This document shows positions 2,323 through 31,988 of a DNA stretch of 52,678 bases, in pieces. The stretch lies in the NCBI GenBank assembly GCA_937925815.1, contig CALAMQ010000028.1, positions 1 through 52,678 of the forward strand, written 5' to 3'. A model generated the notes under the pieces. That model was given only the letters and a program-made list of their open reading frames with translations. It did not search any database and was not told where the DNA came from. Made by a program: the position numbers and the translations under genes. How positions within the stretch are numbered: the stretch's first letter is position 1; every line of letters starts with the position of its first letter. Origin of the DNA: an uncultured Granulosicoccaceae bacterium. Its GTDB lineage: Bacteria; Pseudomonadota; Gammaproteobacteria; CALCKW01.

Positions 2323-2332
2323 GCATCAATCC

Positions 2333-3517: not shown

Positions 3518-3521
3518 CCCC

Positions 3522-5942: not shown

Positions 5943-6777
5943 TATCGCGGGCAAGCCCTGCATTCTGTGTTGCGCAATCACGGGCTCTCTACCAACTAAG
6001 GCAAACAACCCCGCGGTCCCAATCAGTGTCTCCGAGCAAGTCGAGAGCAGCCACGCGGCGGTTGAGGCAGGCGCCTCGATCATTCACGCCCACGTGCGCA
6101 ACGACGATCAAACGCCGAGCAGTGATCCCGACAAATTCGCAGCCCTCAAAGCCGGCTTGGAGAAGCACTGCCCTGGTGTGATCATTCAATTTTCCACTGG
6201 TGGGCGCTCTGGCGCTGGGCGCGAGCGCGGTGGCATGTTAGCGCTCAAGCCGGACATGGCATCGCTTTCGGTGGGTTCAAATAATTTTCCAACGCGCGTC
6301 TATGAGAACCCACCGGACCTTGTCGCGTGGCTTGCCGGTGAGATGAAGAGCCACGAGATCACCCCAGAAGTTGAGGCCTTCGATCTGAGCCATATTCTGC
6401 AGGCTATTGCCCTGTCGAGCAGCGGCGCACTACACGGGACGCTCTACGTGCAATTTGTCATGGGCGTAAAGAACGCCATGCCGGCGGACAAAGCCGTATT
6501 CGACTTCTACGTTCAGACCATGCAAAGCCGGGCGCCGGAGGCACTCTGGTGTGCTGCGGGCATCGGCGCGAACCAGCTGACCGTCAATGAATGGGCGATT
6601 GCCGCGGGCGGCCACACCCGCGCCGGGCTCGAAGACAACGTGCGGCTCGACAAGCACACACTGGCACCGTCTAACGCCGCCTTGATCACACGTGCAGCAC
6701 AGATCTGCGAACGCCACAAGCGCCCGGTCGCCTCCATCGCCGAGGCCCGCGCGATGCTCGGCTTGCGCGCCGCATGA
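5935..6777 (+). CDS. BKACE-family (DUF849) beta-keto acid cleavage enzyme, probably acting on beta-ketoadipate
   Basis: A 280-residue TIM-barrel protein of the beta-keto acid cleavage enzyme family, whose founding member is 3-keto-5-aminohexanoate cleavage enzyme. The zinc-site pair is visible as HAHVR (His51, His53). The family's IQFSTGGR and GGHTRAGLEDN segments are also present. Known members convert a beta-keto acid plus acetyl-CoA to acetoacetate plus a new acyl-CoA. Between pcaG and pcaB, with no pcaI, pcaJ or pcaF in the window, I infer beta-ketoadipate as substrate, giving succinyl-CoA and acetoacetate. It overlaps both neighbours (8 bases with pcaG, 4 with pcaB). Confidence 0.85.
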   Translation: MSDIAGKPCILCCAITGSLPTKANNPAVPISVSEQVESSHAAVEAGASIIHAHVRNDDQTPSSDPDKFAALKAGLEKHCPGVIIQFSTGGRSGAGRERGGMLALKPDMASLSVGSNNFPTRVYENPPDLVAWLAGEMKSHEITPEVEAFDLSHILQAIALSSSGALHGTLYVQFVMGVKNAMPADKAVFDFYVQTMQSRAPEALWCAAGIGANQLTVNEWAIAAGGHTRAGLEDNVRLDKHTLAPSNAALITRAAQICERHKRPVASIAEARAMLGLRAA

Positions 6778-7820
6778 TATTCGCGAGCAATCACCCCTGG
6801 TTGGGCGGCCTGTTCACTGACGCCGAGTTAGATGAGATTTTTGCACCAACTCTAGAGATTGACCGTCTGCTGCGTGTTGAAGCCGCTTGGACCCGGGCCC
6901 TTGGCGACGTGGAGAACAACCCCGGAGCCGACGCGATCGCCAAAAAAATTGAATCATCTGTTGTCGCACCGTCTGAACTTGAACGTGGATTTGCAAAAGA
7001 CGGTGTCCCGATTCCGGCACTGGTGGCACACCTCAAAACTGCGCTCGGGGACGAGGCGGCACACTGGATTCACCGTGGATTGACATCGCAAGACGTGATC
7101 GACACAGCACTCATGCTGACACTGGCAGACGTCATTGCGTTGTTCTCAAAACGGTTGGTTCACCTCGACAACCAACTCCAGCAATTGCAATCAGAATATG
7201 GGAGCGCGCGCCTAACAGCCTTTACACGAATGCAACCAGCACTCGAGACCAACGCAAATACGGTTGTGGGCCATTGGCGTAAGCAGATCACGCCATTGTA
7301 CGAAGAGCTGCAACAAGCAGCGAATCACACCAAGAACATTCAATGGGGCGGCCCAATTGGGCAACGCAGCCACCCAAAAGCAGAGGCATTGGGTCCGTGT
7401 TTTGCGCAACTACTGGGGCTCCGTGACCCGGGACATGCATGGCATACTGACCGGCGCTGCATCAGCCACGTGGCACACTCCCTGACGGGCATTACGGTTG
7501 CAACTGGCAAGTTGGGCGAAGACGTAGCGCTGATGGCAAGCCTTGGACCGGCAAACATCACACTGCGTGGTGGCGAGTCATCGGCGATGCCACACAAAAA
7601 CAACCCGGTGACAGCCGAAGCCTTGATAACACTGTCTGATTTGGCCGCCACGCTGCACGGTGGGATGTTGCGTTCAGCGAGGCACGAGGGATTTCGCTCG
7701 GGACAGGCGTGGACTCTAGAGTGGTTGGTACTGCCTCAGCTGTGCCACGCAGCCGGTGCCAGTTTGCTACTCGCCCGTGAGTTGCTCGGCAAAATAGACC
7801 AGATTGGCCAAGCTGACTGA
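6774..7820 (+). CDS. pcaB: 3-carboxy-cis,cis-muconate cycloisomerase PcaB
   Basis: A member of the fumarase/aspartase superfamily that lactonises 3-carboxymuconate to 4-carboxymuconolactone. The superfamily signature GGESSAMPHKNNPVTAE lies near residues 263-279, and the conserved LTSQDVIDTA segment near residue 104. At 348 residues it is shorter than the roughly 450-residue pseudomonad enzyme but within the range of the compact PcaB forms. ATG 6774 overlaps the BKACE stop by 4 bases (ATGA). It is the last gene of the operon; the next gene is convergent, 33 bases away, with no clear terminator hairpin between them. Confidence 0.93.
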   Translation: MIFASNHPWLGGLFTDAELDEIFAPTLEIDRLLRVEAAWTRALGDVENNPGADAIAKKIESSVVAPSELERGFAKDGVPIPALVAHLKTALGDEAAHWIHRGLTSQDVIDTALMLTLADVIALFSKRLVHLDNQLQQLQSEYGSARLTAFTRMQPALETNANTVVGHWRKQITPLYEELQQAANHTKNIQWGGPIGQRSHPKAEALGPCFAQLLGLRDPGHAWHTDRRCISHVAHSLTGITVATGKLGEDVALMASLGPANITLRGGESSAMPHKNNPVTAEALITLSDLAATLHGGMLRSARHEGFRSGQAWTLEWLVLPQLCHAAGASLLLARELLGKIDQIGQAD

Positions 7821-7853
7821 ACGACGATTTCGCTCAGCCAGCAGGATCCAGCA

Positions 7854-9497
7854 TCAGCTGCCGCTGGCAGCCCAGTGCGATCCACCGCAACCGAGGTCCA
7901 TGGACCCGACCACGTTGTCGATGCACATCTCGCGACCGCCTGGTACAGACATTGGGCTCACGGTCATACACATCTGACCGAATCCCGCTTCGCTTGCCGA
8001 ACCGCCCATCACGTCTGAGCCAGACGACAGTGCAGCAGCACCTGAGTTGAAGTAGGCATTGTTACTTGTCACGGTTCCGCTGCCACGCGCGCCTGCGGCG
8101 TTGCCGCCATCGAGCACGACGTTGCATTCGTAGATTGAATCATCCGAACCCGTAGCAGCCCACTTGACCGCCTCGCTGATGTGGTTGCGTCGAACCACCG
8201 TGCCATGCGCCGTTGACCCGCTTACCAGCGCAAAGCCTTCACCGTTGAAGCCGCTGTAAGTGTCTTGAATGATGTTGTCTTCAATCAGTGTGTCCCACAC
8301 ACCCTCAATCAAGGCGATGCCGCGCGCGTTGTCCCACATCACGTTCTTGGTGATGTGCGTGTTGTGAACAGCGAAGTGCGCGTCAATGGCAGAACCCCAA
8401 CTGGACCCAGTGCTGTGGCAAATACGGTCAGTACGGCGCCAGCCCCACATTTTGTTGTCAGTAACCACAACCGGGTTCGTTGCGTCATAGGACCCTGATT
8501 TCAGGTCAATTGCGTTCTCTGTGCAGGCACAGGGACCGTTGGTCGTGAGGTTGCCGTTGCAGTCTGAGTAGCGGCTGGAGTCGACATAAATGTCATTGCC
8601 CGCAATCAATGTGCCTTGGAAATCGGCGATGTAGCTCAGCCCTTTGTCGTGAATGAGCTGAATGCCATCGTTGCAATTGTATATTTCGTTGTTGACGATG
8701 GAGACATTGTGAATGTCGATGTCGGTACCGGCAGAGTCCTTACCGCGCAATGCCACGCAGACCGCATCGTTGCCGTTGACCAGGTCCACGTCCATGTCAC
8801 CGATGTAACTATTTTGAACCATGACATTGTGCGATCCGTGGTACAGCGACAACCCGATGCGGTTCTTCTGCATGCGAATCCGGTTCACGATGACAGACTG
8901 CGAATTGTCGATTTTGATCGGATAGGTCGTGTCGAGGTCGATAAACGCCAAGCGATCAATCACCCAGTGGTCACTGTCTCTGAGCACCAGGTGCGGCATC
9001 AGCGCCAACTTGGCTTCAGGTGCGTCAAAAAGCGTCTCGCCGTCTTCAACACCCGCCGACGCATACCGCAACACCCGCGGCGAATTCGCAGTGCCGTCAA
9101 CCGAATCAATTAACAGGGTGCCGGCAGAGCGGTAATCACCAGGCTCGATGCAGAACACCCGGTAGCTTGGATCGCTGAACAGACTGAATTGTGAGGTTGA
9201 GCTGATAGTGACTGCATCCGAGCTATCGCACTCGGGCAACGCGATTTGCGCGCTGTAGTCGTAGGTGCCAGGAAAAGCACCCTCTGTTTGGACTTCGGCC
9301 TCGGTGAGCTCGCCACCAGTTCCGACCGTTTCCGAGCCAGTTGCAATACCGACCGACTTACCCGTTAAGGCACCAGTGCCAGGGTCTGGCAGCTCAGATG
9401 TCCCGTCGCAGCCGGCCAACGCCAAGACCACGCCCAGAGCCGCCAGAAACCTCGGGCTCGAGCGAAAGGTCGACTGACCAGTCTGATTACTTTGCAT
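7854..9497 (-). CDS. Lipoprotein with right-handed parallel beta-helix domain
   Basis: A 547-residue exported lipoprotein of unknown function. The signal peptide ends in the lipobox LALAGC (Cys30). Asp31 follows at +2, which in enteric bacteria favours retention in the inner membrane. From about residue 150 to 470 the text is a run of short Asn/Asp-rich beta strands (VSIVNNEIYNCNDGIQLI, VVVTDNKMWG, THITKNVMWDNARGIAL), the look of a parallel beta-helix as in pectate-lyase-like and other carbohydrate-active proteins. Paired cysteines around CNGN and CACTEN suggest disulfides. A strong GGAGGC site lies about 7 bases before the ATG. It is divergent from a second beta-helix lipoprotein gene at 9760. 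Confidence 0.8.
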   Translation of the reverse strand: MQSNQTGQSTFRSSPRFLAALGVVLALAGCDGTSELPDPGTGALTGKSVGIATGSETVGTGGELTEAEVQTEGAFPGTYDYSAQIALPECDSSDAVTISSTSQFSLFSDPSYRVFCIEPGDYRSAGTLLIDSVDGTANSPRVLRYASAGVEDGETLFDAPEAKLALMPHLVLRDSDHWVIDRLAFIDLDTTYPIKIDNSQSVIVNRIRMQKNRIGLSLYHGSHNVMVQNSYIGDMDVDLVNGNDAVCVALRGKDSAGTDIDIHNVSIVNNEIYNCNDGIQLIHDKGLSYIADFQGTLIAGNDIYVDSSRYSDCNGNLTTNGPCACTENAIDLKSGSYDATNPVVVTDNKMWGWRRTDRICHSTGSSWGSAIDAHFAVHNTHITKNVMWDNARGIALIEGVWDTLIEDNIIQDTYSGFNGEGFALVSGSTAHGTVVRRNHISEAVKWAATGSDDSIYECNVVLDGGNAAGARGSGTVTSNNAYFNSGAAALSSGSDVMGGSASEAGFGQMCMTVSPMSVPGGREMCIDNVVGSMDLGCGGSHWAASGS

Positions 9498-9759
9498 TTA
9501 ACTGCCTCCAAAACCTCGGACCGACCACATCCGTCTGGAGTGGTTCCGGCCGTCGAGGGTACTTTACGGCCATGCGAGTATACCTGTACTACCTGCATCG
9601 GCCAAGTCGCTAAACAACTTAAGCGAGCCGAACATCAGAACATACCGCGTAGCTCATTCCAACCATTCAGGTTCGCAAATCGCCACCGATAACTCGCTCG
9701 ACAGGATCAATTTACCGCCTCGCCTAGCAAATAGATGTGACGAGCTATGGATAATTGCC
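9498..9759. promoter_or_regulatory. Divergent intergenic region between two beta-helix lipoprotein genes
   Basis: 262 bases separate two outward-facing genes, so both promoters must lie here. The only element I can place firmly is the GGAGG ribosome site of the leftward gene (about 9508-9512). I see no convincing operator or -35/-10 pair. Confidence 0.45.
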
Positions 9760-11766
9760 ATGACGCATGACTGGATACGTTTAACTGGACTCGCTGCGTG
9801 TCTGGCGCTGTCCGGCTGCCAATCTGCCGACAACGACGTCCAAAAATCCGTTGTCACGCCAGCCTCCGTGCCCGCTGAACCCGCTACACCTCCGTCTGAA
9901 TACCCGGACGATTCGGTACTGACTGCGATGGTGTTCCGACCTGATCCTGAGTTTTGTGACGCGTGTCACACTTCTGAGCCCTGGGTGCCAAGCACCCATT
10001 CAGTGCCCAACTCCGTGCATGTCGCCAATTACGGTGCAACTGGGGATGGCGGTGCCGAGCACGCAGAACTGCAGCGAGCAATCGATGCTGCCGGAGAAGG
10101 CGGTCGCATCATCTTCGAAAGCAACCGCACTTACTACATCTGCAAAATGCTGATTGCCAAAGAGAACCAGCATTGGCTTTCAAGCGGATCCGACCCTGCC
10201 ACGATAAAACGTTGCGACACACCAGTCGCAACACTCACCGCAGACGTCAGCGCTGGTGCCACCGCGCTGCCGGTCGACGACACAGACGGCTTTGAACATG
10301 GCATGTGGGTGTCTCCGGTACAGGCCGGAAACGACGACTTCTACGCTGGCGAGCTGAGCCATCACCCCATTTACAACATCAGCGGAAATGTACTGAACGT
10401 CTACCAGACACTTGGTAAAGACTACAAAGCCGGAGACAAAGTGGTGTTGTCTTTCGCCATGGTCAAAGACAATGACGGAGCGCTTTTTGAAGGCCTTCAG
10501 TTCGATGGCAACGCCGAGGGCAACGACCACTTCGTGAGCTGGGCCCGACACACCTCGTTGTGGCTGCAAGCCACAGGCAGCCGCGCGAGCCACAACCGTT
10601 TCATTAATTCGCAGGGCGATGCTATCAGTGTGCAAGGATGGGACAACATCATTGAGCACAACGCGTTCAGTGATCTCAATGGCGCAGCAATTCACTTCAG
10701 CGCAGCAAAACACACGATCGTGCGTCACAACAGCGTGGTCAAATCCAATCTTGAAGCCGCGCGCGTAGTACACGCAGAGGCCGCATTCACGTGGTCGCTC
10801 GGCAACGAAGATATTCTCGTTGAGCACAACTGCATCCAAGATATTCCAGCGGCGGCATTTGGTCACTTTCTCACACATGGCAACAACCACGGGGCGGACA
10901 TCCGGGAAAACCAAATTTGTGAAACAGATTCGCTGATGCGTGTCGTGTCGACCCTTCCTCTAGACGTCGATCTACTGTTCACCGACAACACAGTCAGAAA
11001 TGCTGGGACTCTGACATTGTCTGGACTAAACACACACATGTATGGATTTGAAATCTCGGGCAATCGATTTCACAACAGCGCGATCAACGCCAAGAATGTC
11101 TCTGACATCCTGATTGAGGACAACCACTTCTCAATCACATCCGACGCAGAACTCGGGGATGAGCTGGAATCCCACCACAATAAATTGGCGACCATCACCA
11201 TTCGCGGTGGCAGTGATATCACCGTAGCGGACAACTTCATCAGCGGAGGTCAAAAAGGCATTCAGGTCTACAACGATTTGGCTCGCGTCTCAAACCTACT
11301 GATTAGCAACAACAGCGTCACCCAACACACAGAGCACGGCATCATCATTGGTCACCCAGTGTCAATTGATTCCGAAGACGCCGATCAAAGCGATTTCAAC
11401 GGCGTGACAGTGGAAAACAACCTGATATCGAGCGATCAGCTCGACATCGCGAGATCAGCGGTGGAAATTGGCCGCGGTGCGCCATTGATCGGAAACTGCA
11501 TTGAATCCAACGAATTCGGTGCCACCCTACACGGCCACACCGGTAGCGCGGCCACTCCAAGCACTCAAGTGTCAGGCAACCGAATCAACTCGACTGCCGC
11601 ATCCCTTAACGCTTATGCACCCTACACATCTGGGATTTTGATCAGCGACAACTCCGCCTCGAGCTCAACCGCAGCTGCACTGCTTACTGGCGCCAGCTCC
11701 GTCGAAAACACCAATCCGCTCAGCGACACTTGCCACCTCAGGTATGTTCCAACACCCAAACAGTGA
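9760..11766 (+). CDS. Lipoprotein with pectate-lyase-like parallel beta-helix domain
   Basis: A 668-residue lipoprotein. The lipobox is LALSGC (Cys20) with Gln21 at +2, compatible with outer-membrane sorting. After a Pro/Thr-rich linker (residues 30-60) comes CDACH (residues 66-70), then VANYGATGDGGAEHAELQRAI (from about 84), the entry motif of pectate_lyase_3-type beta-helix proteins, where GATGDG is typical. From about residue 235 on, repeated coils such as SHNRFINSQGDAISVQGWDN and IVRHNSVVKSN run to about residue 600. The substrate is unknown; polysaccharide binding or cleavage is an inference from the fold. It is divergent from and analogous to the gene at 7854-9497, though the two differ greatly in sequence. 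Confidence 0.8.
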   Translation: MTHDWIRLTGLAACLALSGCQSADNDVQKSVVTPASVPAEPATPPSEYPDDSVLTAMVFRPDPEFCDACHTSEPWVPSTHSVPNSVHVANYGATGDGGAEHAELQRAIDAAGEGGRIIFESNRTYYICKMLIAKENQHWLSSGSDPATIKRCDTPVATLTADVSAGATALPVDDTDGFEHGMWVSPVQAGNDDFYAGELSHHPIYNISGNVLNVYQTLGKDYKAGDKVVLSFAMVKDNDGALFEGLQFDGNAEGNDHFVSWARHTSLWLQATGSRASHNRFINSQGDAISVQGWDNIIEHNAFSDLNGAAIHFSAAKHTIVRHNSVVKSNLEAARVVHAEAAFTWSLGNEDILVEHNCIQDIPAAAFGHFLTHGNNHGADIRENQICETDSLMRVVSTLPLDVDLLFTDNTVRNAGTLTLSGLNTHMYGFEISGNRFHNSAINAKNVSDILIEDNHFSITSDAELGDELESHHNKLATITIRGGSDITVADNFISGGQKGIQVYNDLARVSNLLISNNSVTQHTEHGIIIGHPVSIDSEDADQSDFNGVTVENNLISSDQLDIARSAVEIGRGAPLIGNCIESNEFGATLHGHTGSAATPSTQVSGNRINSTAASLNAYAPYTSGILISDNSASSSTAAALLTGASSVENTNPLSDTCHLRYVPTPKQ

Positions 11767-12168
11767 CGAGGCGTTCCAGTCCAGTGCCGTGGCAGCAGGC
11801 TAGAGATCAACATCGCTGATTGAGACCCAGCCGGATGCAACGCATAGACAGTTGCCTCCTTTGGCGTGGATAGACGGCACTGTTTCTTACGCTGCCCTTT
11901 AGACCGTGATTGCGCGTTGAGTCCACCGGTACATATACGACCTGGCCCCTTCTAACACCGAAGCGATTGGCCTGTCCGATCTGTTCATCCTCACTCAAGC
12001 AGCTCCCAGTCCCCGTACAAATTAGCGACAACTGTGCACTGATCGGTGCAAAATCGGCCGGAGAAAAGCTTGGGCACGCCCGGCCTGCTTTGAGTTTATA
12101 CTTGGCAACCTAGGATTGTGAGGCTTTCACAGACCACACCACTTGCGAAAACAGGTACCGCATACACC
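11767..12168. other. Intergenic region without a supported gene
   Basis: About 400 bases between the beta-helix lipoprotein and the FKBP gene. Short open frames exist on both strands (for example 11807-12031 on minus), but none has a convincing ribosome site or recognisable product. The FKBP promoter presumably lies in the last 150 bases. I see no hairpin terminator with a T-run. Confidence 0.4.
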
Positions 12169-12642
12169 ATGAAATTCTTAGCGCTTATCGTCGTTGCGTT
12201 CGCCGTTGCCTATCTGATACTGCAATTTGTGAACAGTGGAAAAGCCAAAGACAACATACGATCTGGTAAAGATTTTTTAAATCAAAACGCCACAATAGAC
12301 GGTGTAACAACCACCTCCACTGGCTTGCAATATCTGCGGTTGGAGCCCGGCACAGGTGACACACACCCTGGCCCACGAGACCGAGTTAAGGTGCACTACC
12401 ACGGTACATTGATTGACGGCACTGTCTTCGACAGCTCAGTCGAACGAGGCGAGCCAATAGACTTTGCTCTAAATCAGGTCATACCAGGATGGACTGAGGG
12501 GGTGGGGATGATGGTTGAGGGCGAAAAAGCGCGCCTTTTCATCCCAAGCAAGCTCGCTTACGGCAACCGATCTGCTGGAGCAATCGCACCCGGGTCAACT
12601 CTGATTTTCGATGTTGAATTAATCGCTATTCACCCCGAGTAA
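12169..12642 (+). CDS. Membrane-anchored FKBP-type peptidyl-prolyl isomerase
   Basis: A 157-residue protein with one N-terminal membrane segment (residues 3-21) and a complete FKBP domain from about residue 60. Typical stretches are VKVHYHGTLIDGTVFDSS, VIPGWTEGV and LAYGNRSAGAIAPGSTLIFDVELI. It catalyses cis-trans isomerisation of prolyl bonds, here probably facing the periplasm from the inner membrane. I chose ATG 12169; an in-frame GTG at 12118 would put 17 polar residues before the membrane segment. It stands alone, convergent with the GGDEF-EAL gene. Confidence 0.9.
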   Translation: MKFLALIVVAFAVAYLILQFVNSGKAKDNIRSGKDFLNQNATIDGVTTTSTGLQYLRLEPGTGDTHPGPRDRVKVHYHGTLIDGTVFDSSVERGEPIDFALNQVIPGWTEGVGMMVEGEKARLFIPSKLAYGNRSAGAIAPGSTLIFDVELIAIHPE

Positions 12643-16277: not shown

Positions 16278-17996
16278 TCAGGTCTGGATGCCATATCTCT
16301 TGATTTTGTTGTAGAGCGTGCGAGTTGTCATTCCCAGAGCGCGTGCGGTTTGTGAACGCCGGAATCCATTGTTTGCCAATGCACGCGCTATGCGATCCCG
16401 TTCTGATGACGCGTCGGTGCTTTCGATGACTTGAGCGCTGTCGGCCACTGGCTGGCACAAGAATTCAACCGAGCGACGCGTCACAGTACGCCCATCCACC
16501 TCCCTGATAGCACGCTTCATTGCAAAATAGAGCTCTCGCACATTACCCGGCCAACGGTACTCCATCAGCACACGCAATGCGGCATTGGAAAACTGAGGCG
16601 CGTTGTCTTCAGTAAGTGCAGTGGCCAAGTGCATGGCCAACTCCGGAATATCTTCACATCGCTCACGCAGCGGCGGAATACGCAAGACATGTCCCGACAG
16701 CCTGAAATACAAGTCCAGACGAAAATCCGCATTCACTGCCAAATCTTCTGCGCTCATCGAGGTGGTTGAGACCACGCGAGTGTCAACCACACGGTGGTTC
16801 AGTTCACCGGGCCGCTGCACCACACCGTTGTCAAGGAAGTTCAACAACCGCCCTTGCTGGGACGAGGGCAAAGAGGCAATTTCTTCAAAAAGGATACTCG
16901 TGCCACCGGCGCTCTCGAGCACACCGCGCTGCCCGGGCGGTGCACTGCGCCCACTCGCAGCGCGCCCGAGCAAATGCAGTCCGTTGTCACGCGCATCAAT
17001 CGCGGGGCAATCGACAACCACTGGCGGCTTGTTACTGTGAGGCGACAAGCGATGCAAACTCAGGGCCGCAAGGCTTTTTCCAACTCCGGTCTCACCAGTG
17101 ACCAACACCGGCACATCATCTAGCGCGAGTTGGTCAATGTCTTCACGCAGAGCCTGCATACAGCGAGAACTGCCCACCAACATGTGATCGCCATCGCGGA
17201 CTCTTTGTCGCTGAACACGTGTCAGAGACGGAATTGCAGTAAAGCTGCGCGCCACTTCGTCTAGTGTTTTTTCAAGAGGGATGCGGTCCAACGCTGATCC
17301 GGCAACAAACCCGCGCACGTCACACATTCTCATCAACGACAAGGCGTGCTCCGGGGAGGTTATGGGCCCACCGTGGCAAAGTGCCGCCACATCCGATGGC
17401 AGCCCTTCAAGCACGGAGTTGATTTTTGCAGCCGCCGCTTCAAGCGTTAGGTGCGTGGCGACACCCGTAGCACCACCAGTAAATCCCACATTGACGCATA
17501 TGGAAGTTGCACCCACATCGATCATCTGGCGGACCTGTTGATTAGTCTGCACGTAAACGAAGGTATCCAGACCGACACCACGCGCAATCTGCACAAGCTC
17601 GACTTCACGTGCAAAGCCGAGACCTTCACGGTCAAATACGCTCGCCAGCCTGCCGTCCACAGAGCTCGTCGACGGAAAATTGCACACACCAGCAAAACCC
17701 ATATCGAGCACGCGCTCGACCAGGGATCTCAGATTCAAAGCCGGGTCACTGACAGAAAGACCCGCGTACAACGGCGTGCGACAGCGACCCAGCAGTTCGC
17801 GTTCTGAGAACTCCATGACCCATTCGTTTGCCGGGCGAACTGGCAGAAAGCTTGTCAATGAAGACGCCCCTTGCACCCGAAACCGACCGGCGTTCAACGC
17901 CAGTAAATAGTCAGCACCAGATCTGTCGGCCGCTTTGGCCGTCAACCCGGAGCCAACTACTGCACCAAACAGAAAGGGCCGTTTCGCCCGCGTCAC
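16278..17996 (-). CDS. Transcriptional regulator: PEP-hydrolase-like TIM barrel fused to AAA+ and Fis-type HTH
   Basis: 572 residues in three parts. Residues 8-250 are a TIM barrel of the phosphoenolpyruvate-hydrolase-like family, aligning throughout with the enzyme at 24621-25469 and keeping its signature residues: GSGLTAK (15-21), NAGRFR (35-40), CHGGP (207-211). Residues 272-500 are an enhancer-binding-type AAA+ domain with Walker A GETGVGKS (301-308), FRLDLYFRL and PGNVREL. The GAFTGA loop that contacts sigma-54 is absent (AASGRSAPPG stands in the region), and Walker B reads ILFEE rather than FLDE. Residues 530-570 form a Fis-type helix-turn-helix. GTG 17996 overlaps the preceding gene by 4 bases. 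I infer a ligand-sensing regulator of the divergent transporter operon. Confidence 0.88.
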   Translation of the reverse strand: MTRAKRPFLFGAVVGSGLTAKAADRSGADYLLALNAGRFRVQGASSLTSFLPVRPANEWVMEFSERELLGRCRTPLYAGLSVSDPALNLRSLVERVLDMGFAGVCNFPSTSSVDGRLASVFDREGLGFAREVELVQIARGVGLDTFVYVQTNQQVRQMIDVGATSICVNVGFTGGATGVATHLTLEAAAAKINSVLEGLPSDVAALCHGGPITSPEHALSLMRMCDVRGFVAGSALDRIPLEKTLDEVARSFTAIPSLTRVQRQRVRDGDHMLVGSSRCMQALREDIDQLALDDVPVLVTGETGVGKSLAALSLHRLSPHSNKPPVVVDCPAIDARDNGLHLLGRAASGRSAPPGQRGVLESAGGTSILFEEIASLPSSQQGRLLNFLDNGVVQRPGELNHRVVDTRVVSTTSMSAEDLAVNADFRLDLYFRLSGHVLRIPPLRERCEDIPELAMHLATALTEDNAPQFSNAALRVLMEYRWPGNVRELYFAMKRAIREVDGRTVTRRSVEFLCQPVADSAQVIESTDASSERDRIARALANNGFRRSQTARALGMTTRTLYNKIKRYGIQT

Positions 17997-18631
17997 GCTC
18001 TGGGCTCCACAAAAACCACACCGTCAACTGGCAGCTCACTCAGTGCGACCTGGCTCTCGTGCCACGCCGAGGTATAAACACTGATATGGACGGCTTTAAC
18101 CTCACGGCGCAAGGTATCAATCATCCTACCCAGTGAACGCAACAGCAGTTCGCCGTCGGTCTGACTGGGCTCCAATAACCCTGGGTGTAAGACCAGCTGG
18201 TCAAGCCCTGCACCGACCGCTGCGCGCGCCTGATCAAGTGACCTAAAAAATGCGAGCGCACTCAAACCGACAGCGGACGCGCGGGCAAGAAAGGCGTACT
18301 CCGTTTCCGCTGAGGCAGGAATGGTGGACATGGCTTGACGCATCTGGCCATCGAGCACAATTGCAGACGGCCAATTCACGACACCGCGGTAGCCTTTATC
18401 GACGAGCAGACTAAACAACGCCGATTCAGAGCCGAAGGGATCACTCGCCAGGAGTGCCGCCCACTCACTGCGACGCGCTTGAGAACGAACTGCACGATTG
18501 TGGTCCATCCTCGGCATCAGAAACGCGAGGTCGACCTGCGCCGGGGACAAGTTCGCAATGCCCGGACAGTAGATGCCTTGTTTGGGATCATCAATATCGT
18601 CGAGAAGCCCGTAGAGCTGCAATTTGCGCAT
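17993..18631 (-). CDS. Degenerate TIM-barrel paralogue of the PEP-hydrolase-like family
   Basis: A 212-residue protein with no match to a described function that I know. Its middle (ALLASDPFGSESALFSLLVD, then GYRGVVNWPSAIVLDGQM) aligns by eye with the core of the regulator's barrel (GLSVSDPALNLRSLVERVLD, GFAGVCNFPSTSSVDGRL) and with the enzyme at 24621-25469. It lacks the N-terminal GxGLxAK and NxGRxR motifs, and YTSAWHES replaces the CHGGP region, so catalysis is unlikely. It is first in a two-gene leftward operon, and its TGA overlaps the regulator's GTG by 4 bases, implying coupled translation and perhaps a complex with the regulator. Confidence 0.72.
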   Translation of the reverse strand: MRKLQLYGLLDDIDDPKQGIYCPGIANLSPAQVDLAFLMPRMDHNRAVRSQARRSEWAALLASDPFGSESALFSLLVDKGYRGVVNWPSAIVLDGQMRQAMSTIPASAETEYAFLARASAVGLSALAFFRSLDQARAAVGAGLDQLVLHPGLLEPSQTDGELLLRSLGRMIDTLRREVKAVHISVYTSAWHESQVALSELPVDGVVFVEPRA

Positions 18632-18820
18632 CAGAAATCGGCAAGAATAAATTTCCGAAAATTCTACATGATTTCCGATTATTTCTCATTTTCAGACTTT
18701 CAGGCTTGGTTTAATATATTTTAATTCTTATATTTCAATAGTTTATAACTTTCTCTATTCTGCGGAAATCAGTGGACGCCGTCTGCCTGTAATCAGACCA
18801 TATGCATCAGGGAGGACCTA
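18632..18820. promoter_or_regulatory. Divergent promoter region of the TIM-barrel/Liv system with inverted GATTTCCG repeats
   Basis: An AT-rich 189-base region between the leftward regulator pair and the rightward transporter operon. A 9-base inverted repeat, TGATTTCCG (18669-18677) and CGGAAATCA (18763-18771), is a candidate operator pair; a related TTTCCGAAAA lies near 18652. A possible rightward sigma-70 promoter is TTGGTT (18706-18711) and TTATAT (18728-18733) with a 16-base gap. I find no sigma-54 element (GG-N10-GC), in line with the regulator's missing GAFTGA loop. GGAGG at 18811-18815 is the ribosome site of the first transporter gene. Confidence 0.5.
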
Positions 18821-19687
18821 ATGCGTTTATTTCTGATCGTGACACTCAACGGCCTGACGCTCGCCGCTTTGTATTTTCTGGCCGCAAGTGGTTTCAGTTT
18901 GATTTTCGGGCTCATGCGCACCGTCAACATGGCACACGGCGCATTGCTGTTGCTCGGTGGCTACGTTGGGTATGACGTCGTCGAACTCACGGGGTCCTGG
19001 ATGCTAGGAATCGCCTGTGGCGGCCTTGCCGCAGCACTCGCCGGCGCTGCTGTGCAAGCCGGGATTCTCGGCTGGATGCAAGGCGACGAACTGCGCCAGA
19101 CGCTAGCGTCAATTGCCATCTCTATCGTGCTCGCCGACCTGATGCTTTGGTACTGGGGCGGAATCACTTATCAAGTCAGTTTGCCAGACATACTCAGCGG
19201 CGGTCAGAAACTACCGCTGCTCGGTGTCGGTTACGCCAACATTCGTCTTGCACTGATGGCATTTGCCGTAGTCGTCGGTGTCATGCTTTGGTTCTTGATT
19301 CAGCGCACGCGATTCGGCGCTGTCATTCGAGCGGGTGTCGATGACCAAGACATGTTGCGCGCACTTGGGTTTCCGATTGGCCGAATCTTCATTGCAGTGT
19401 TCGCATTGGGCAGCGCACTTGCAGGCATGGCAGGCGTGATCGCCGCCAGCGCCCTTTCAATTTCACCCGGCACGGATTTGCAGTTCCTGTTGTCATCACT
19501 TGTCGTTGTGATTGTTGGCGGAATGGGATCCATCGGTGGCGCCGCGCTTGGCGCCCTGCTCGTCGGACTGGCCGAACAATACGGACTGGCTTACGCCCCA
19601 ACCTACGGCGTCGTTTTCACATTTGGCATCATGGTGCTGATCTTGGCAGTGCGCCCGCAGGGCCTAATGGGCAGATCAGAACAATGA
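18821..19687 (+). CDS. Liv-type ABC transporter permease (LivH family)
   Basis: 288 residues with about eight membrane segments and the LivH pattern: NGLTLAALYFLAASGFSLIFGLMRTVNMAHGA at the start (split here over two helices) and the conserved VVIVGGMGSIGGA loop near residue 235 that docks the ATPases. It forms one half of the inner-membrane channel of a branched-chain-amino-acid/amide-type importer. Strong GGAGG site five bases before the ATG. It overlaps the next permease gene by 4 bases. First gene of the rightward operon divergent from the regulators. Confidence 0.93.
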   Translation: MRLFLIVTLNGLTLAALYFLAASGFSLIFGLMRTVNMAHGALLLLGGYVGYDVVELTGSWMLGIACGGLAAALAGAAVQAGILGWMQGDELRQTLASIAISIVLADLMLWYWGGITYQVSLPDILSGGQKLPLLGVGYANIRLALMAFAVVVGVMLWFLIQRTRFGAVIRAGVDDQDMLRALGFPIGRIFIAVFALGSALAGMAGVIAASALSISPGTDLQFLLSSLVVVIVGGMGSIGGAALGALLVGLAEQYGLAYAPTYGVVFTFGIMVLILAVRPQGLMGRSEQ

Positions 19688-20670
19688 AAGCTGGATTCCT
19701 TGCACTGCCATTGATTGCGTTGCCATTCGTCCTGAACGATTTCTGGCTCACACAAATTGCTACACGCGCATTGATACTGGGAATCACCGCGTTGAGCCTG
19801 AGCTTCCTCGCCACGTATTTAGGTGTGGTTTCCTTCGCTCAAATAACCTTGGCCGGGATAGCGGGATACACAATTGCCTACTTTGGCCCCAATACTGTTG
19901 GCGTCGGCATCAAACTGCCATTCTGGGTATCTATTCCAGCAGCCCTTTTATTTTCAGTCACCGCAGGCGCCCTTATTGGGTACATCGCACGCCGGTCACG
20001 CGGCATCTACGCGATCATGATCACCCTTGCAATAGGGGTCGCTTTTTTCTACTTCACTCGTCAAAACTACGCCGTATTTAACGGCTGGACTGGCTTCTCG
20101 GGCATCACCGCTCCGGTCGTCGCTGGCACGAGCTTACGAGATCCCAGCACCTTGTACTTTTTGTCACTCGCAACAGCGGCAATCGCTGTGGTACTGGTGA
20201 GTCTGTTCGCGCGCGCACCATTGGGCCTTGCTATCCAAGCCGTGCGAGACGCACCCAGCCGCGTGATGGCGCTTGGAATACCGGTGACAACCCCTGTCGT
20301 TGCAGCTTTCGCCTTCTCAGGCCTGATCGCCGGGGGTGGCGGCATTCTCAATGTTTGGTACCAAGAGCGCATTTCCTCTTTCTCAGTTGGTCTCGGTCCG
20401 ATCATCGACGTGTTGATCATTGCTGTGATTGGCGGATTGCGCCACCCATTAGGCGCTTTTCTCGGCGCAATCGTTTTCGTCCTACTGGACACCTTCGCTG
20501 TCGATCTCATCGACCGCGATCGCTTCAACACACTGATCGGCATGGTGCTGCTGATCATCGTGATGGTCGCCCCTAACGGGCTTCAGCAGCTAGCCGCAGA
20601 CGCGGTGGCAAAGCTGCGCGCAAAAGAGCACCAGTCGGGCAAATCTGCTCGCATAAAGACGAACACTTAA
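19684..20670 (+). CDS. Liv-type ABC transporter permease (LivM family)
   Basis: 328 residues, about nine to ten membrane segments, with LivM features such as LSLSFLATYLGVVSFAQITLAGIAGY near residue 38 and VIGGLRHPLGAFLGAIVF near residue 250. It pairs with the LivH-type subunit. ATG 19684 overlaps the previous stop in an ATGA arrangement. The C-terminal tail after about residue 300 is charged and cytoplasmic. Confidence 0.93.
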   Translation: MKAGFLALPLIALPFVLNDFWLTQIATRALILGITALSLSFLATYLGVVSFAQITLAGIAGYTIAYFGPNTVGVGIKLPFWVSIPAALLFSVTAGALIGYIARRSRGIYAIMITLAIGVAFFYFTRQNYAVFNGWTGFSGITAPVVAGTSLRDPSTLYFLSLATAAIAVVLVSLFARAPLGLAIQAVRDAPSRVMALGIPVTTPVVAAFAFSGLIAGGGGILNVWYQERISSFSVGLGPIIDVLIIAVIGGLRHPLGAFLGAIVFVLLDTFAVDLIDRDRFNTLIGMVLLIIVMVAPNGLQQLAADAVAKLRAKEHQSGKSARIKTNT

Positions 20671-20686
20671 TGAGGAGTAACACAGC

Positions 20687-21925
20687 GTGAAAAGACTGAA
20701 AATTGCTGCCACTGCATTGGCTATTGGCGCCGTGGTCGCACCAGCGCAGGCAGAAGATATCAAGATCGGCGTTATTTCCATCTTGGAAGGTGCATTTGCA
20801 TCACTTGGACAGGACGGTATTCGCGGCGCGGAGCTGGCGGTCAAGGAAGCCGGTGGCGTTGTAGATGGACAGAGCATCGATGTGATCACGATGTCATCGG
20901 ACGCAAGCCCGGACAGCGCAGTCAATGCTGCACGAAAACTGATCGAACAAGACAACGTCGACATATTGGTAGGACCGCTTTCAGGTTCAGAAGGCATAGC
21001 CCTGAGGGACTTGTCAAAATCCTACCCTGACATCACCTTTATCAACGGATCATCTGCCGCACAGGACACAACCCTCCGCGACAGCTCTGAGAACTTTTTC
21101 CGCTTTGGCGGTGATGGTGCGCAATGGATGGTCGGCGTCGGCCAGTACGCCTACGAAGAGATGGGATACAAGTCTGTCGCTGTCGTGGCCGAAGATTACT
21201 CGTTTCCCTATACCCAAGTGCTTGGCTTCATGAGTGAGTACTGCAGCGCTGGCGGTCGTGTGCCAGAGAAGTTCTGGACACCCATTGGCAACAAAGACTA
21301 CTCATCCGTTGTCTACTCAATCCCAGACGATGTTGACGCCATTTTTGTCGCGCTCGGTGGTGCAGATGCCGTCAACTTTCTCACACAGTACGACCAAGCC
21401 GGCGGCGACAAACCGATTATCGGCGGCTCAATCACGATCGACTCGTCAATTCTCGAATCTAAAGGGCCGTTTAAGAATCTCTTGATAGGCGCTCCAGCTG
21501 GCACGCCAACAGTCAGCGACTACGAGGGCGACGAATGGATTGCTTTCACCGCGTTGTACAACGAGGCCTATCCAGACGGTTTTTCCGCACCGTCCATTTT
21601 TGCACATCACTATTACATGGGTGCGAAGGCGGCCATGTTGGCACTGGATGAGGTGGACGGTTCGCTGGATGATGGACAGCAAGCGTTTCGTGCAGCTCTG
21701 ACCGATCTCGAGTTTGTCACGCCAACCGGTGGCACTATGCGTTTGGACGAGAACCGCAACGGTATTATTGACAACTTTGTCACCGAAGTGTACGAGCGCG
21801 AGGACGGCAGTCTTGGCACCCGGGTAGTCAAGGTCGTACGTGACGTCAACCAAGTGTTAGGCCAAGACCCTGAGATTTTCCTCGCCTCAGGCCCTGTCAG
21901 CCGGGATAACCCGTCTTGTCCCTGA
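20687..21925 (+). CDS. Liv-type ABC transporter periplasmic substrate-binding protein
   Basis: 412 residues. A Sec signal peptide ends near residue 22 (AVVAPAQA, then EDIKIG). The mature part is a type I periplasmic binding protein of the LivJ/amide class (IKIGVISILEGAFASLGQDG, VDILVGPLSGSEGIALRD). The start is GTG 20687 with TGAGGAG at 20671-20677. The ligand cannot be told from sequence; family members bind amino acids, amides, urea or aromatic compounds. The gene overlaps the next ATPase gene by 10 bases, so all five transporter genes are one unit. Confidence 0.92.
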   Translation: MKRLKIAATALAIGAVVAPAQAEDIKIGVISILEGAFASLGQDGIRGAELAVKEAGGVVDGQSIDVITMSSDASPDSAVNAARKLIEQDNVDILVGPLSGSEGIALRDLSKSYPDITFINGSSAAQDTTLRDSSENFFRFGGDGAQWMVGVGQYAYEEMGYKSVAVVAEDYSFPYTQVLGFMSEYCSAGGRVPEKFWTPIGNKDYSSVVYSIPDDVDAIFVALGGADAVNFLTQYDQAGGDKPIIGGSITIDSSILESKGPFKNLLIGAPAGTPTVSDYEGDEWIAFTALYNEAYPDGFSAPSIFAHHYYMGAKAAMLALDEVDGSLDDGQQAFRAALTDLEFVTPTGGTMRLDENRNGIIDNFVTEVYEREDGSLGTRVVKVVRDVNQVLGQDPEIFLASGPVSRDNPSCP

Positions 21926-22689
21926 TCACTGAAAATGCTGTATGCCCTGCCCTGGAAGTCCAGGGCATCGGCAAGCGGTTTGGCGGCTTTTGGGCTGTCA
22001 AGGATATTGACCTCGTCATTAAACAGGGCGAACGCCGTGCCATATTGGGACCGAATGGCGCCGGCAAAACGAGCTTGTTTAATGTGCTAACTGGCGACCT
22101 ATCAGCCAGTTCAGGACAGGTGCGAATGCACGGCGAGGACATTAGCCGCTACCCGATGGACAAGCGCATCCGGCGTGGCCTTCGACGAACCTATCAACAC
22201 GCACATTTGTTCGATGGCTTGTCCGTTCGGGACACGTTGTTTCTGGCCGTCGCCGCCTTGCGCGGCGGCTGGAGACAAGTGTGGCCAGTGAGCCAACGGG
22301 ACGCGCGCGTGCAACAAGCCGAAGCACTGGCCGAACTCGCCGGATTGTCTGATGCGATTCATCGCGGCGTCGCCGAGCTCAGTCACGGTCAGCGCAGACA
22401 ACTCGAGATTGGGATCGCGCTAGCAGGCGAGCCACGTGTACTGCTTCTCGACGAACCAGCAGCGGGTTTGTCCCCTGCCGAGCGGCCAAAACTCAGGGAA
22501 TTATTGACCTCACTGCCAAACCACATCACGGTGGTGCTGATTGAGCACGACATGAATATTGCCTTGCAAACCTCGGATTTCGTCACAGTACTTTACAACG
22601 GTGAATGGCTCGCCGATGGAACACCAGACGAAATCGTACTAGACGACAATGTCAGGCGCGTCTACCTCGGTGGTAGAGATGGCGACTGA
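21916..22689 (+). CDS. Liv-type ABC transporter ATPase (LivG family)
   Basis: A 257-residue ATPase with Walker A GPNGAGKTS (from about residue 46), Q-loop in the RTYQHAHLF segment, signature LSHGQRRQLEIG and Walker B VLLLDEPAAGLSP. The LivG-type extra C-terminal tail (YLGGRDGD) is present. The only start near the family's usual N-terminus is a TTG at 21916, inside the end of the binding-protein gene, so translation is probably coupled. The signature reads SHGQ rather than SGGQ, a common LivG variation. Confidence 0.93.
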   Translation: MSLITENAVCPALEVQGIGKRFGGFWAVKDIDLVIKQGERRAILGPNGAGKTSLFNVLTGDLSASSGQVRMHGEDISRYPMDKRIRRGLRRTYQHAHLFDGLSVRDTLFLAVAALRGGWRQVWPVSQRDARVQQAEALAELAGLSDAIHRGVAELSHGQRRQLEIGIALAGEPRVLLLDEPAAGLSPAERPKLRELLTSLPNHITVVLIEHDMNIALQTSDFVTVLYNGEWLADGTPDEIVLDDNVRRVYLGGRDGD

Positions 22690-23395
22690 TTCGGTTCTAG
22701 ATATTACAAATCTGGACCTGCACTACGGCTCTAGCCACGTGTTACACCAGGTAAATCTCAGCGTAAGCCACAAGCCACTGAGCATTCTGGGGCGCAATGG
22801 CATGGGCAAGACCAGCCTGTGTCAAGCCATCATGGGATTGCATCGCCACAGCGCTGGCAACATCCGCTTTTGTGGCCGAGAAATCGGCGCAATGCCACCG
22901 GAACAGCGCGCGCAGGCCGGTTTGGCCTATGTGCCACAAGGACGTCGTGTTTTCAGGTCTCTAACCGTAGACGAGCATTTACAAATCGTTGAACGCTCAG
23001 GCGCTGCGTGGAATCGGGAACGGGTCTACGACACCTTTCCAAGGCTAGCAGAGCGTCGACGTAACCTTGGAGACAGGCTGTCAGGCGGCGAGCAACAAAT
23101 GCTCGCCATTTCACGTGCGTTGTTACTCAATCCCCGCCTGATCCTATTGGACGAGCCCACTGAAGGCTTGGCCCCAACCATTGTTGACGACGTTGTGACG
23201 TTAATCACCAACATCGTTGAAGAAGGTATCGCGGTTGTACTGGTCGAGCAGAACATGCACGCGGCCCTCCAAGCCGTGGACGAGGTGGCAATCATGGTTG
23301 GCGGTCAAGTTGTTGACGTGCTGCCGTCAGAGCAATTGGCCTCTGATTCAGAGTTGCAAAATCACTACCTCGGACTCGACTTGGTCAATAACTAA
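22679..23395 (+). CDS. Liv-type ABC transporter ATPase (LivF family)
   Basis: The second ATPase, 238 residues from ATG 22679, with Walker A GRNGMGKTS, LivF-type YVPQGRRVFRSLTVDEHL, signature LSGGEQQMLAISRAL and Walker B LILLDEPTEGLAP. An earlier in-frame ATG at 22649 would add ten residues lying inside livG; I preferred 22679 because GGTGGTAGAG precedes it and the product then has the usual LivF length. It overlaps livG by 11 bases and is followed 14 bases later by the UPF0261 gene. Confidence 0.93.
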   Translation: MATDSVLDITNLDLHYGSSHVLHQVNLSVSHKPLSILGRNGMGKTSLCQAIMGLHRHSAGNIRFCGREIGAMPPEQRAQAGLAYVPQGRRVFRSLTVDEHLQIVERSGAAWNRERVYDTFPRLAERRRNLGDRLSGGEQQMLAISRALLLNPRLILLDEPTEGLAPTIVDDVVTLITNIVEEGIAVVLVEQNMHAALQAVDEVAIMVGGQVVDVLPSEQLASDSELQNHYLGLDLVNN

Positions 23396-23409: not shown

Positions 23410-24615
23410 ATGAAAAAGCGTATTTATGTCATCGGCACCGCTGACACAAAGTCTTCCGAGCTGCGCTATGTACGGGATTTGATCAACGCCGCAGATCTTG
23501 AGACCGTGCTTGTCAATGTAGGCATCAAGGGCAGTGAAAACGGTGTTGATGTGACCGCCAGCACGGTGGCTGCATGCCACACAGACGGGCCCGCCGCTGT
23601 GTTTATTGACGACCGCGGCCGCGCTGTCATGGCCATGGCCAGTGCACTCGTCAACTACCTCACAGCACGCGATGATATTGGCGGCGTGATCGGGCTCGGT
23701 GGTTCTGGTGGCTCGGGCATCATCGCGCCTTCAATGCAAGCCCTGCCAATAGGCGTACCCAAAATATTGGTTTCCACCTTGGCGTCAGGTGACGTGTCGG
23801 CTTACGTCGGCGCGAGCGACGTCAACATGTTCCACCCAGTCACCGACGTCTCCGGTTTGAATCGAGTGTCTCGAATTCTGCTCGCCAACGCGGCCCATGC
23901 CATGGTCGGCATGGCAAGTCACGTTGTGCCAAGCACCACAGATAATCGCCCCGCACTGGTTTTTTCGATGTTTGGGATCACCACGCCCGCCGTACAAGCG
24001 ATCACGCAGCAGCTGGAAAAGGACTTCGATTGCATCGTATTCCACGCCACTGGCAACGGTGGAAAGTCGATGGAATTACTGGTTGATCAAGGCGAGATTA
24101 GCGGTGTGCTGGACATCACCACAACCGAGGTATCCGATCTCATTGTGGGCGGCGTATTGAGCGCCGGCGAAGACCGATTTGGCGCAATTGCTCGCAGTCA
24201 GGTGCCTTATATCGGTTCATGTGGGGCACTTGATACAGTGAATTTTTGGGGACCAGAGACGGTGCCACCACAGTTCAAGGACCGCACGTTCTACCAACAC
24301 AATGCACAAGTCACTTTGATGCGTACCTCGCCAGATGAGTGTGCAAGTATCGGATCGTGGATTGGCCAAAAGCTCAATGCCTGCCAGGGGCCCGTGCGCT
24401 TCTTGCTGCCGCTACAAGGTGTCTCGTCACTCGACACACCAGACGGTCCTTTTCACGACCCAGTGGCGTCAGACGCACTTTTTCAATCATTGCGCGACAC
24501 CGTCAATCAAGACAGCCAACGCCAACTGATCGAGTTGGATCTACACATCAATGACACCGCGTTTGCCGACGCGGCCTTGCAGCAATTCATCACTATTTAC
24601 CGGGGAGTTGAGTAA
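23410..24615 (+). CDS. UPF0261 / Tm-1-like ATP-binding-domain protein
   Basis: A 401-residue cytoplasmic protein of the UPF0261 family, homologous to the N-terminal half of the plant virus-resistance protein Tm-1. Family hallmarks seen: the start [19 protein letters not shown], the Gly-rich [10 protein letters not shown] (about 95-104) and [16 protein letters not shown] near residue 215. No enzymatic reaction is established for the bacterial family. AAGAGAG precedes the ATG by six bases. In Tm-1 the second half is a TIM barrel; here that half is the separate next gene, 5 bases downstream, so the two products probably work together on whatever the Liv transporter imports. Confidence 0.9.
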
Positions 24616-24620
24616 CAACC

Positions 24621-25469
24621 ATGGCACAGTCAGGACGTAAGGCAATCCTCACAGGGCTTCGAAGTAAAATTGATTCGGGTCGCTTGATCATTGGCGGCGG
24701 CGCCGGCACGGGCCTATCCGCAAAATGCGAAGAGTCCGGCGGCGTCGACCTCATTGTCATTTACAACTCAGGACGGTATCGCATGGCAGGCCGGGGATCG
24801 CTTGCAGGTTACATGTCATACGGCAATGCAAACGACATCGTTGTGGAAATGGGCAATGAAGTGTTGACCGTAGTCAAACGCGTCCCAGTTCTCGCGGGCG
24901 TCAACGCCACCGACCCATTTCGCAACATGGATTTGTTCTTGGATCAGCTAAGCGCCATGGGGTTTGCCGGCATCCAGAACTTTCCAACTGTCGGCATCAT
25001 TGACGGTCGCTTTCGCGCGGAACTCGAAGCCACCGGTATGTCCTATGAACTCGAAGTCCAAGCCATCGCTAAAGCGCATGAACGCGATATGTTGACGACA
25101 CCGTATGTTTTCAGTGCGGACAATGCTGTCTCAATGGCACAGGCCGGCGCTGACGTTATCGTTGTGCATTTTGGCCTGACCACTGGCGGCACAATCGGCG
25201 CAGCTGATAGCGCACCGAACATTGACGAATGCGTTGATCTCTACAACGACTGGACTCGAGAGGCACGCAAATACCGAGAAGATCTGATATTCATTTGCCA
25301 CGGTGGTCCACTGGCAGAACCCGAAGACGCACAGAACTTTTTGGATAAATGCCCTGACTGCCACGGTTTTTACGGCGCGTCGTCAATGGAGCGCCTGCCG
25401 ACAGAACGCGCGATTACCCAGCAGGTTGCGAAATTTGGCAGCATGCGCCGCTCTGTTAAACCCAACTGA
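24621..25469 (+). CDS. Phosphoenolpyruvate-hydrolase-like TIM-barrel protein (Tm-1 C-terminal-half homologue)
   Basis: 282 residues, one TIM barrel with all family motifs: GTGLSAK (29-35), NSGRYR (49-54), [13 protein letters not shown] (from 120), CHGGP (226-230), GASSMERLP (252-260). The family name reflects similarity to phosphoenolpyruvate-using barrels; I know of no proven reaction. It is the complete and presumably catalytic copy of a domain that occurs three times at this locus, the others being the regulator's N-terminus (16278-17996) and the degenerate copy (17993-18631). Start ATG 24621, 5 bases after the UPF0261 stop. Confidence 0.9.
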
Positions 25470-25479
25470 GGGAATCACT

Positions 25480-25923
25480 GTGATCAAAGCCTACTCTTCA
25501 ACCATCATTGCTCTGCCCGTCAACGATGTCTGGGAACGGGTCAGTGACTTTAACGGACTCCCGCTGTGGCATCCGGCCGCCACCGACAGCCAGATCGAGC
25601 CTGGAAGTCACAACGGTGTCGTTGGGTGTGTCCGCAACTTCGCGCTCACTGACGGTTCTGGTCGCATCCGAGAGACGCTGCTATCAATTTCCGCAAGCGA
25701 ACGCTCCCTCACTTATGACATGCTGCCTGGCGGCCCACTGCCATTCGTCAACTACGTGGCGAAAATGCAGTTCAGTGACTTTAGCGATCGTGGACACACT
25801 TTTGCCCAATGGTGGGCGGAGTTCGAAGCTGGTGATGGGCGCACAGAGCACTGGCACCAATTTGTTGAAAAAGACGTTTTTCTCGGTGGCTTTGACGCTT
25901 TGGAGAAGAGTTTCTCTCGCTAG
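25480..25923 (+). CDS. SRPBCC-family (START-like) protein
   Basis: 147 residues from GTG 25480, with GAGGGA about 7 bases upstream. The frame extends back to 25303, but that part lies inside the previous gene. The pattern KAYSSTIIALPVNDVWERVSDFNGLPLWHP is the classical first strand and helix of the SRPBCC fold, a hydrophobic-cavity binding domain found in polyketide cyclases and START-like proteins. The ligand is unknown. As last gene of the transporter operon, it may bind or transform an intermediate of the pathway. Confidence 0.85.
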   Translation: MIKAYSSTIIALPVNDVWERVSDFNGLPLWHPAATDSQIEPGSHNGVVGCVRNFALTDGSGRIRETLLSISASERSLTYDMLPGGPLPFVNYVAKMQFSDFSDRGHTFAQWWAEFEAGDGRTEHWHQFVEKDVFLGGFDALEKSFSR

Positions 25924-29289: not shown

Positions 29290-29301
29290 GATTGCACTCC
29301 T

Positions 29302-31397: not shown

Positions 31398-31406
31398 GGC
31401 CTCCCT

Positions 31407-31943: not shown

Positions 31944-31988
31944 AGCCAGAGCAGCTCTGCGCGATCAAGACAACGAGAGAACAGCACG

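Follow-up and report, generated by a model that had tools for sequence, protein, structure and literature searches.

A PEP_hydrolase-like barrel fused to an AAA+ module lacking GAFTGA: a probable sigma-54-independent, metabolite-sensing regulator

The gene at 16278-17996 in the window (the whole stretch of DNA analyzed here, 52,678 nucleotides) raises the question of how a protein assembled like a sigma-54 activator works when it carries an enzyme-type barrel at its N terminus and, as the initial annotation claimed, no GAFTGA loop. It is a single open frame on the minus strand with a GTG start at 17996, encoding 572 amino acids, and the plus-strand frame across the same interval is riddled with stops. 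Orthologous loci and low dN/dS values ruled out a spurious open reading frame or a chance product. The sigma-54-activator-type core, the lid, and the Fis-type helix-turn-helix (HTH) are all present (PF00158, PF25601, and PF02954), and the N-terminal region matches positions 14-267 of the 267-position PF09370 profile with 221 bits, i.e., as a whole barrel.

16278 to 17996, minus strand: regulator, PEP_hydrolase-like barrel plus AAA+ core, lid, and Fis-type HTH (open reading frame, Pfam, orthologue L047 at 59%)
17232 to 17978, minus strand: putative sensor barrel, residues 7-255 (Pfam PF09370, PEP_hydrolase, E 1.6e-65)
16692 to 17180, minus strand: AAA+ alpha/beta core, residues 273-435 (Pfam PF00158, Sigma54_activat, E 1.8e-30)
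17073 to 17096, minus strand: intact Walker A, GETGVGKS, residues 301-308 (alignment)
16929 to 16967, minus strand: loop-1 segment GRAASGRSAPPGQ at the GAFTGA position, residues 344-356 (alignment)
16878 to 16895, minus strand: altered Walker B, ILFEEI, residues 368-373 (alignment)
16701 to 16724, minus strand: intact arginine-finger segment, FRLDLYFR, residues 425-432 (alignment)
16461 to 16667, minus strand: AAA+ lid with GNVREL, residues 444-512 (Pfam PF25601, AAA_lid_14, E 1.9e-15)
16284 to 16409, minus strand: Fis-type HTH, residues ~530-571, the most conserved module of the family (Pfam HTH_8, PF02954, at 532-568, E 6.9e-11)

Alignment with enhancer-binding proteins (EBPs) of the same genus bore out what had been read from the letters. 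Loop 1 of the regulator is GRAASG-RSAPPGQ where the EBPs have GHEKGAFTGAISTR, and no GAFTGA loop is present; Walker B, noted as altered, is ILFEEI in place of hhhDEI or hhhhDE; and Walker A, the arginine-finger segment, and GNVREL (noted as part of PGNVREL) are intact, as had been stated. The same alignment revealed an Asn-to-Asp change in the NC.A segment (VDCPAI). Loop 1 is deleted or replaced, as it is in the GAFTGA-less, sigma-70-type relatives of EBPs. An AlphaFold model of the regulator, built from a two-row alignment, had a mean pLDDT of 39.6 and was set aside. Elsewhere in the alignment, the genus has other EBP-type proteins without GAFTGA: L009 (G000:C172), L018, and L019, with a loop, GTETLLASGETVV, that is common to three genomes, and L008 (G000:C31), which has a Walker B of LFLSAV and no arginine fingers.

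The regulator belongs to a family of such fusions. We collected 30, mostly from alphaproteobacterial genomes and plasmids; 29, including that of the window, were aligned, and the 30th (L142, from Azospirillum) was read. Rhodobacterales carry them, as does a broader sampling of Alphaproteobacteria, the class of L047; in the window's class, one other genome (G362) has one. Plasmid-borne copies come from rhizobia, Shinella, Bosea, Qingshengfaniella, Terrarubrum, and Azospirillum. Most matches in the first genome scan shared the AAA+ part only, and those from Salinibacter, Rhodococcus, and Streptantibioticus proved not to be fusions. GAFTGA was found in none of the 30. Chance or misalignment as the source of the loop loss was ruled out, since the 59% orthologue L047 and 28 remoter members also lack the motif. 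A single branch sets the regulators apart in both the AAA+ tree (98*) and the barrel tree (100*), quick trees with some long branches, that of L107 above all, and by these trees the fusion regulators form one clade. The regulator barrel of a further locus, L113 (G739), is broken by one TGA and may represent a pseudogene or a sequencing error; that locus was used only for its companion (see below) and enzyme.

We then considered whether this family uses sigma-54 at all. Searches for two separate domains indicated that rpoN is missing from 7 of 17 other fusion-bearing genomes: Sigma54_CBD was absent from all seven, while Sigma54_DBD was absent from five and represented in two by only a 41-residue, 22-bit match. 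The same domain search finds rpoN in G000 and G362. The completeness of the seven assemblies is not given, but an assembly gap that removed one and the same gene from each is unlikely. Among the seven are the hosts of L047 (Pacificibacter marinus) and L115, the orthologues closest to the window regulator. On this genomic evidence, sigma-54 is not needed by the fusion family. The window's own genome carries rpoN, and the sigma-54 independence of its regulator follows, by inference, from the rpoN-less hosts of its orthologues, the missing loop, and the promoter region: neither strand of 18632-18820 contains the GG-N10-GC core of a -24/-12 promoter, in agreement with the earlier failure to see a sigma-54 promoter there. 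A scan for the sigma-54 consensus with three mismatches was uninformative (598 matches versus 605 expected).

The databases name these proteins "sigma-54-dependent Fis family" or "phosphoenolpyruvate hydrolase family," and a literature search found no published description of a PF09370 regulator and no functional study of the fusion. The members on rhizobial plasmids, which have the same architecture as the window regulator, are known by database names only (y4pA and the two names just given); we take y4pA to be the fusion regulator gene of these plasmids. In Bradyrhizobium, y4pA has been listed as a sigma-54 factor copy (PMC9069715). If the annotation "sigma-54-dependent Fis family transcriptional regulator" were correct, the protein would be a true sigma-54 activator whose loop 1 has diverged. 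The annotation of the rhizobial-plasmid members, the rpoN gene in the window's genome, and the intact Walker A, arginine fingers, and GNVREL of the window protein would fit. However, published work on sigma-54 activation treats an intact GAFTGA as essential (PMC3162934), the loop is absent throughout the family, seven hosts lack rpoN, and 18632-18820 has no GG-N10-GC core; we find this reading scarcely credible. Because there are fusion hosts without sigma-54, the standard "sigma-54-dependent" annotation of the fusion regulators is very probably wrong.

Loss of the loop is accompanied by erosion of the ATPase. Among 25 members, the HTH has the highest mean pairwise identity (57%), followed by the barrel (45%), the lid (33%), and the AAA+ core (26%), the reverse of the order in ordinary EBPs of the genus (AAA+, 53%; lid, 37%; HTH, 39%). 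Invariant or nearly invariant positions number 4 of 168 in the AAA+ core and 35 of 248 in the barrel. Twelve of the 25 members have a broken Walker A, two of them through a Lys-to-Arg change, and outside the window's clade of six the arginine fingers are gone; mapped onto the barrel tree, loss of Walker A needs two changes and loss of the arginine fingers one. In most close pairs, dN/dS is 0.12-0.17 for the AAA+ core versus 0.05-0.09 for the barrel, about twice as high and well under 1. To judge from these comparisons, constraint on the AAA+ core has loosened but not vanished, as one would expect for a scaffold. The AAA+ module of the window protein probably still binds ATP, with hydrolysis that would be weak or nil, and several distant relatives appear from their sequences to be unable to bind ATP.

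These findings bear on another possibility, that the protein is an ATP-driven activator of the sigma-70 polymerase and that ATP binding or hydrolysis is essential in the window's clade, as in the NtrC proteins of Rhodobacter or Caulobacter. Walker A and the arginine fingers are kept in all six members of that clade, and in published work, ATP binding is required by Rhodobacter capsulatus NtrC and residues of both Walker motifs, A and B, by Caulobacter NtrC (PMC10274813). On the other hand, the Walker B Asp is replaced in most of the clade (the close relative L115 keeps LIFDEI), and the rest of the family, which has the same cassette, has lost its ATPase residues. We regard ATP-driven action as a credible but lesser possibility. 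The core inference of the initial annotation, that a sensor of enzyme origin sits on an AAA+ module working without sigma-54, gains more support here than a single sequence could give: the loop is absent (0 of 30), Walker A is broken in about half of the members, and 7 of 17 other fusion-bearing genomes lack rpoN.

What the barrel might sense is suggested by the divergent genes, which form a cassette with an ABC transporter of the branched-chain/urea type and an enzyme of the barrel's own family.

18821 to 20670, plus strand: two ABC permeases, start of the divergent operon (18821-19687 by Pfam BPD_transp_2; 19684-20670 by translation and position)
20687 to 23395, plus strand: substrate-binding protein (20687-21925) and two ABC ATPases (21916-22689 and 22649-23395)
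23410 to 24615, plus strand: Tm-1-like UPF0261 protein
24621 to 25469, plus strand: PEP_hydrolase-like enzyme (Pfam E 5.7e-124)
25486 to 25923, plus strand: SRPBCC/Polyketide_cyc2 protein, end of the cassette

Linkage of the regulator with the cassette and with the companion gene is constant across loci. The claim that the regulator barrel keeps all of the signature residues held only in part: GSGLTAK, NAGRFR, and CHGGP are retained, with many pocket residues, but His183 (numbering of the enzyme at 24621), invariant in 29 of 29 cassette enzymes, is Asn169 in the window regulator and Asn in 24 of 29 regulators, and Glu80, Arg132, and Asp178, further enzyme-invariant positions, also differ. Loss of the invariant His favors a barrel that binds its ligand over one that turns it over. 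A still-active barrel would make the protein a trigger enzyme with two jobs, for which the retained pocket residues could be cited; with the His invariant in the cassette enzymes and three other positions changed and a bona fide enzyme already encoded in the same cassette, we think this very unlikely.

The regulator does not travel alone. Directly upstream, overlapping it by 4 bp, lies a second gene of the same enzyme family.

17993 to 18631, minus strand: companion, a second degenerate PF09370 barrel, 212 amino acids (Pfam E 5e-14; 30 of 30 loci; fold match 2p10)

With a profile seeded solely by clean companion sequences, we found the companion at all 30 loci scanned (the 29 aligned and L113), although L130 has only a 127-amino-acid open fragment, and all 14 plasmid records with a companion match were also among the regulator-barrel matches. 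Where loci are annotated, a short control region in most cases separates the companion from a cassette gene that it faces. The unit is larger than 16278-17996, since the companion gene goes with every copy. Its predicted structure (pLDDT 62.7, middling) has 2p10 as the best PDB match. The companion is probably a dedicated partner of the regulator, and DhaR, which is controlled by binding its pathway's own kinase, offers a parallel.

The companion might even be the sensor itself, with the regulator's own barrel as a docking platform only. Its constant presence would agree with this, as would its retention of the equivalents of enzyme residues D98, P99, N120, P122, and E145 in at least 26 of 29 cases. 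Against it, the companion, whose C-terminal alignment is unsure, lacks the GSGxxAK, R54, HGGP, and GASS loops that the regulator keeps, and we judge this arrangement unlikely.

The regulator's own barrel is the preferred sensor, and candidate sites at which the protein might act lie in the control region shared by the two operons.

18632 to 18820, unstranded: shared control region between the companion-regulator and transporter operons (189 bp, 35% GC, no sigma-54 core)
18638 to 18644, minus strand: candidate half-site TTGCCGA (predicted)
18652 to 18658, plus strand: candidate half-site TTTCCGA (predicted)
18672 to 18678, plus strand: candidate half-site TTTCCGA (predicted)
18691 to 18720, plus strand: weak sigma-70-like match TTCAGA-18-TATATT, towards the transporter operon (2 found, 0.7 expected)

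The pattern T[CG]GG[ACT]AA occurs at 3.6 per kb in control regions versus 0.99 per kb elsewhere in these loci, and 35 times versus a mean of 5.8 in local shuffles, figures for a pattern that was chosen on the same data and that has no match at several loci. Two half-sites lie 10 bp apart at L116, L123, and L133, and L113 has the palindrome AAAAATCGGCAATAGTTGCCGATTTTT. We regard the TT(G/T)CCGA half-sites as a candidate operator, a lead rather than a demonstration. In the window they lie 7-47 bp from the companion start codon; with respect to the weak sigma-70-like match (18691-18720), they are on the upstream side, a position that could suit an activator.

The same positions could suit a plain ligand-released repressor of both divergent operons, one that never activates and whose AAA+ module only holds the oligomer together. 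The closeness of the sites to the companion start codon would fit, as would an eroding AAA+ core beside an HTH that is held; however, the sites are upstream of, not on, the match for the transporter operon, and we consider pure repression rather unlikely.

Taken together, these results make it probable that the protein is a sigma-54-independent, metabolite-sensing regulator of the divergent transporter/Tm-1-like/PEP_hydrolase cassette. In this mechanism, the N-terminal barrel, a member of the pathway enzyme's family, would bind a metabolite of the Tm-1-like/PEP_hydrolase pathway, the AAA+ module would serve as a scaffold for oligomerization and signal relay, and the HTH is predicted to bind the TT(G/T)CCGA half-sites at 18638-18678. 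From there, as the site positions suggest, the regulator would repress its own companion-regulator operon and, with ligand bound, activate the divergent operon through sigma-70 RNA polymerase, with the companion as its partner. The proposal builds on features read directly from the genes and genomes, namely, the domain make-up, the absence of GAFTGA (30 of 30), the ATPase erosion, the seven rpoN-less hosts, and the constant companion gene. Activation as opposed to repression, like the kind of ligand, is suggested by gene order. The rpoN gene of the window's genome counts against the proposal, as do the intact Walker A and arginine fingers, with which ATP-driven action is possible. A broader and more tentative idea, which may well prove wrong, is that of a two-part metabolite sensor drawn from one enzyme family: a barrel fused once to a sigma-54 activator would have given a fusion that dropped sigma-54 and, stepwise, its ATPase and that works with an ever-accompanying second degenerate copy of the enzyme.

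The cassette itself seems to have come from elsewhere. In the trees, both genes of the window, regulator and enzyme, group with L047 and L115, whereas the window genome lies outside the class of L047 (in the window-centered search, genomes of that class belong to the same phylum but not the same class), and PF09370 is absent from the three other genomes of the window's genus. Horizontal acquisition is the simplest reading; GC content, at 55-57% on all sides, does not mark the cassette as foreign and speaks neither for nor against.

Other gene contexts, in the window and at related loci, were also noted. A likely inositol-catabolism cluster adjoins the cassette at 27620-33146 (class-II aldolase, KduI/IolB, PfkB kinase, xylose-isomerase-like barrel, and Gfo/Idh/MocA). 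Cassettes L120, L121, L124, L125, L126, L128, and L129 have a sugar-type transporter or neighbors, with cupin, Gfo/Idh/MocA, sugar kinase, or HAD genes; such sugar-type genes in rhizobial and related cassettes hint at a sugar- or polyol-derived substrate. In L125 (Terrarubrum flagellatum plasmid, 3024-12367), a single companion and fusion regulator lie between two Tm-1-like/PEP_hydrolase pairs. Farther away in the window are an aromatic-acid cluster at 940-7820 (TRAP transporter DctM, FAD monooxygenase, a hydrolase fused to carboxymuconolactone decarboxylase, protocatechuate dioxygenase, BKACE, and a lyase) and, at 7854-9497, a 547-amino-acid open reading frame with no Pfam match at an E value of 1e-5.

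Beyond correcting the standing annotation of family members as sigma-54 dependent, the fusions would provide a natural graded series, from Walker A plus arginine fingers to neither, with which to probe the role of an AAA+ module once sigma-54 and ATP are gone, and the rpoN-less hosts make such a test clean. The regulator's ligand, if found, would also give a clue to what substrate the widespread Tm-1-like/PEP_hydrolase pair acts on, the solved protein 2p10 included.

That protein, Mll9387 of Mesorhizobium, is a PF09370 barrel like the regulator's sensor and is identical to the enzyme of the Mesorhizobium pMLa cassette, which has its own fusion regulator (L121); unlike the regulator, it is a stand-alone enzyme with the invariant His and without an AAA+ module or HTH. 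The sensor modules of TyrR and DhaR are not known to be enzyme barrels, unlike that of the regulator. Plant Tm-1-like proteins fuse UPF0261 to a PF09370 barrel, the products of adjacent genes in the window's cassette, but lack AAA+ and HTH modules (PMC5028733). EBP relatives without GAFTGA are an already known kind, including TyrR, DhaR, HupR, Rhodobacter NtrC, and VpsR. TyrR and DhaR of Escherichia coli are ligand- or partner-sensing EBP relatives with no working GAFTGA and, like HupR, are sigma-70 dependent (PMC3162934). R. capsulatus NtrC, HupR, and Caulobacter NtrC share with the regulator an EBP-type AAA+ module with a loop-1 deletion and act at sigma-70 promoters, R. capsulatus NtrC with a need for ATP binding but not hydrolysis (PMC10274813, PMC3162934); they differ in having a phosphorylation-controlled receiver domain, not an enzyme-type barrel, and no erosion of their AAA+ modules is reported. 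One of the better matches, by sequence, to the regulator's AAA+ core is VpsR of Vibrio cholerae (PDB 7v2b). It differs in its receiver-like N terminus and its control by c-di-GMP, but it too lacks GAFTGA, has an altered Walker B (LLLNDI), and acts at sigma-70 promoters with no need for ATP (PMC10274813).
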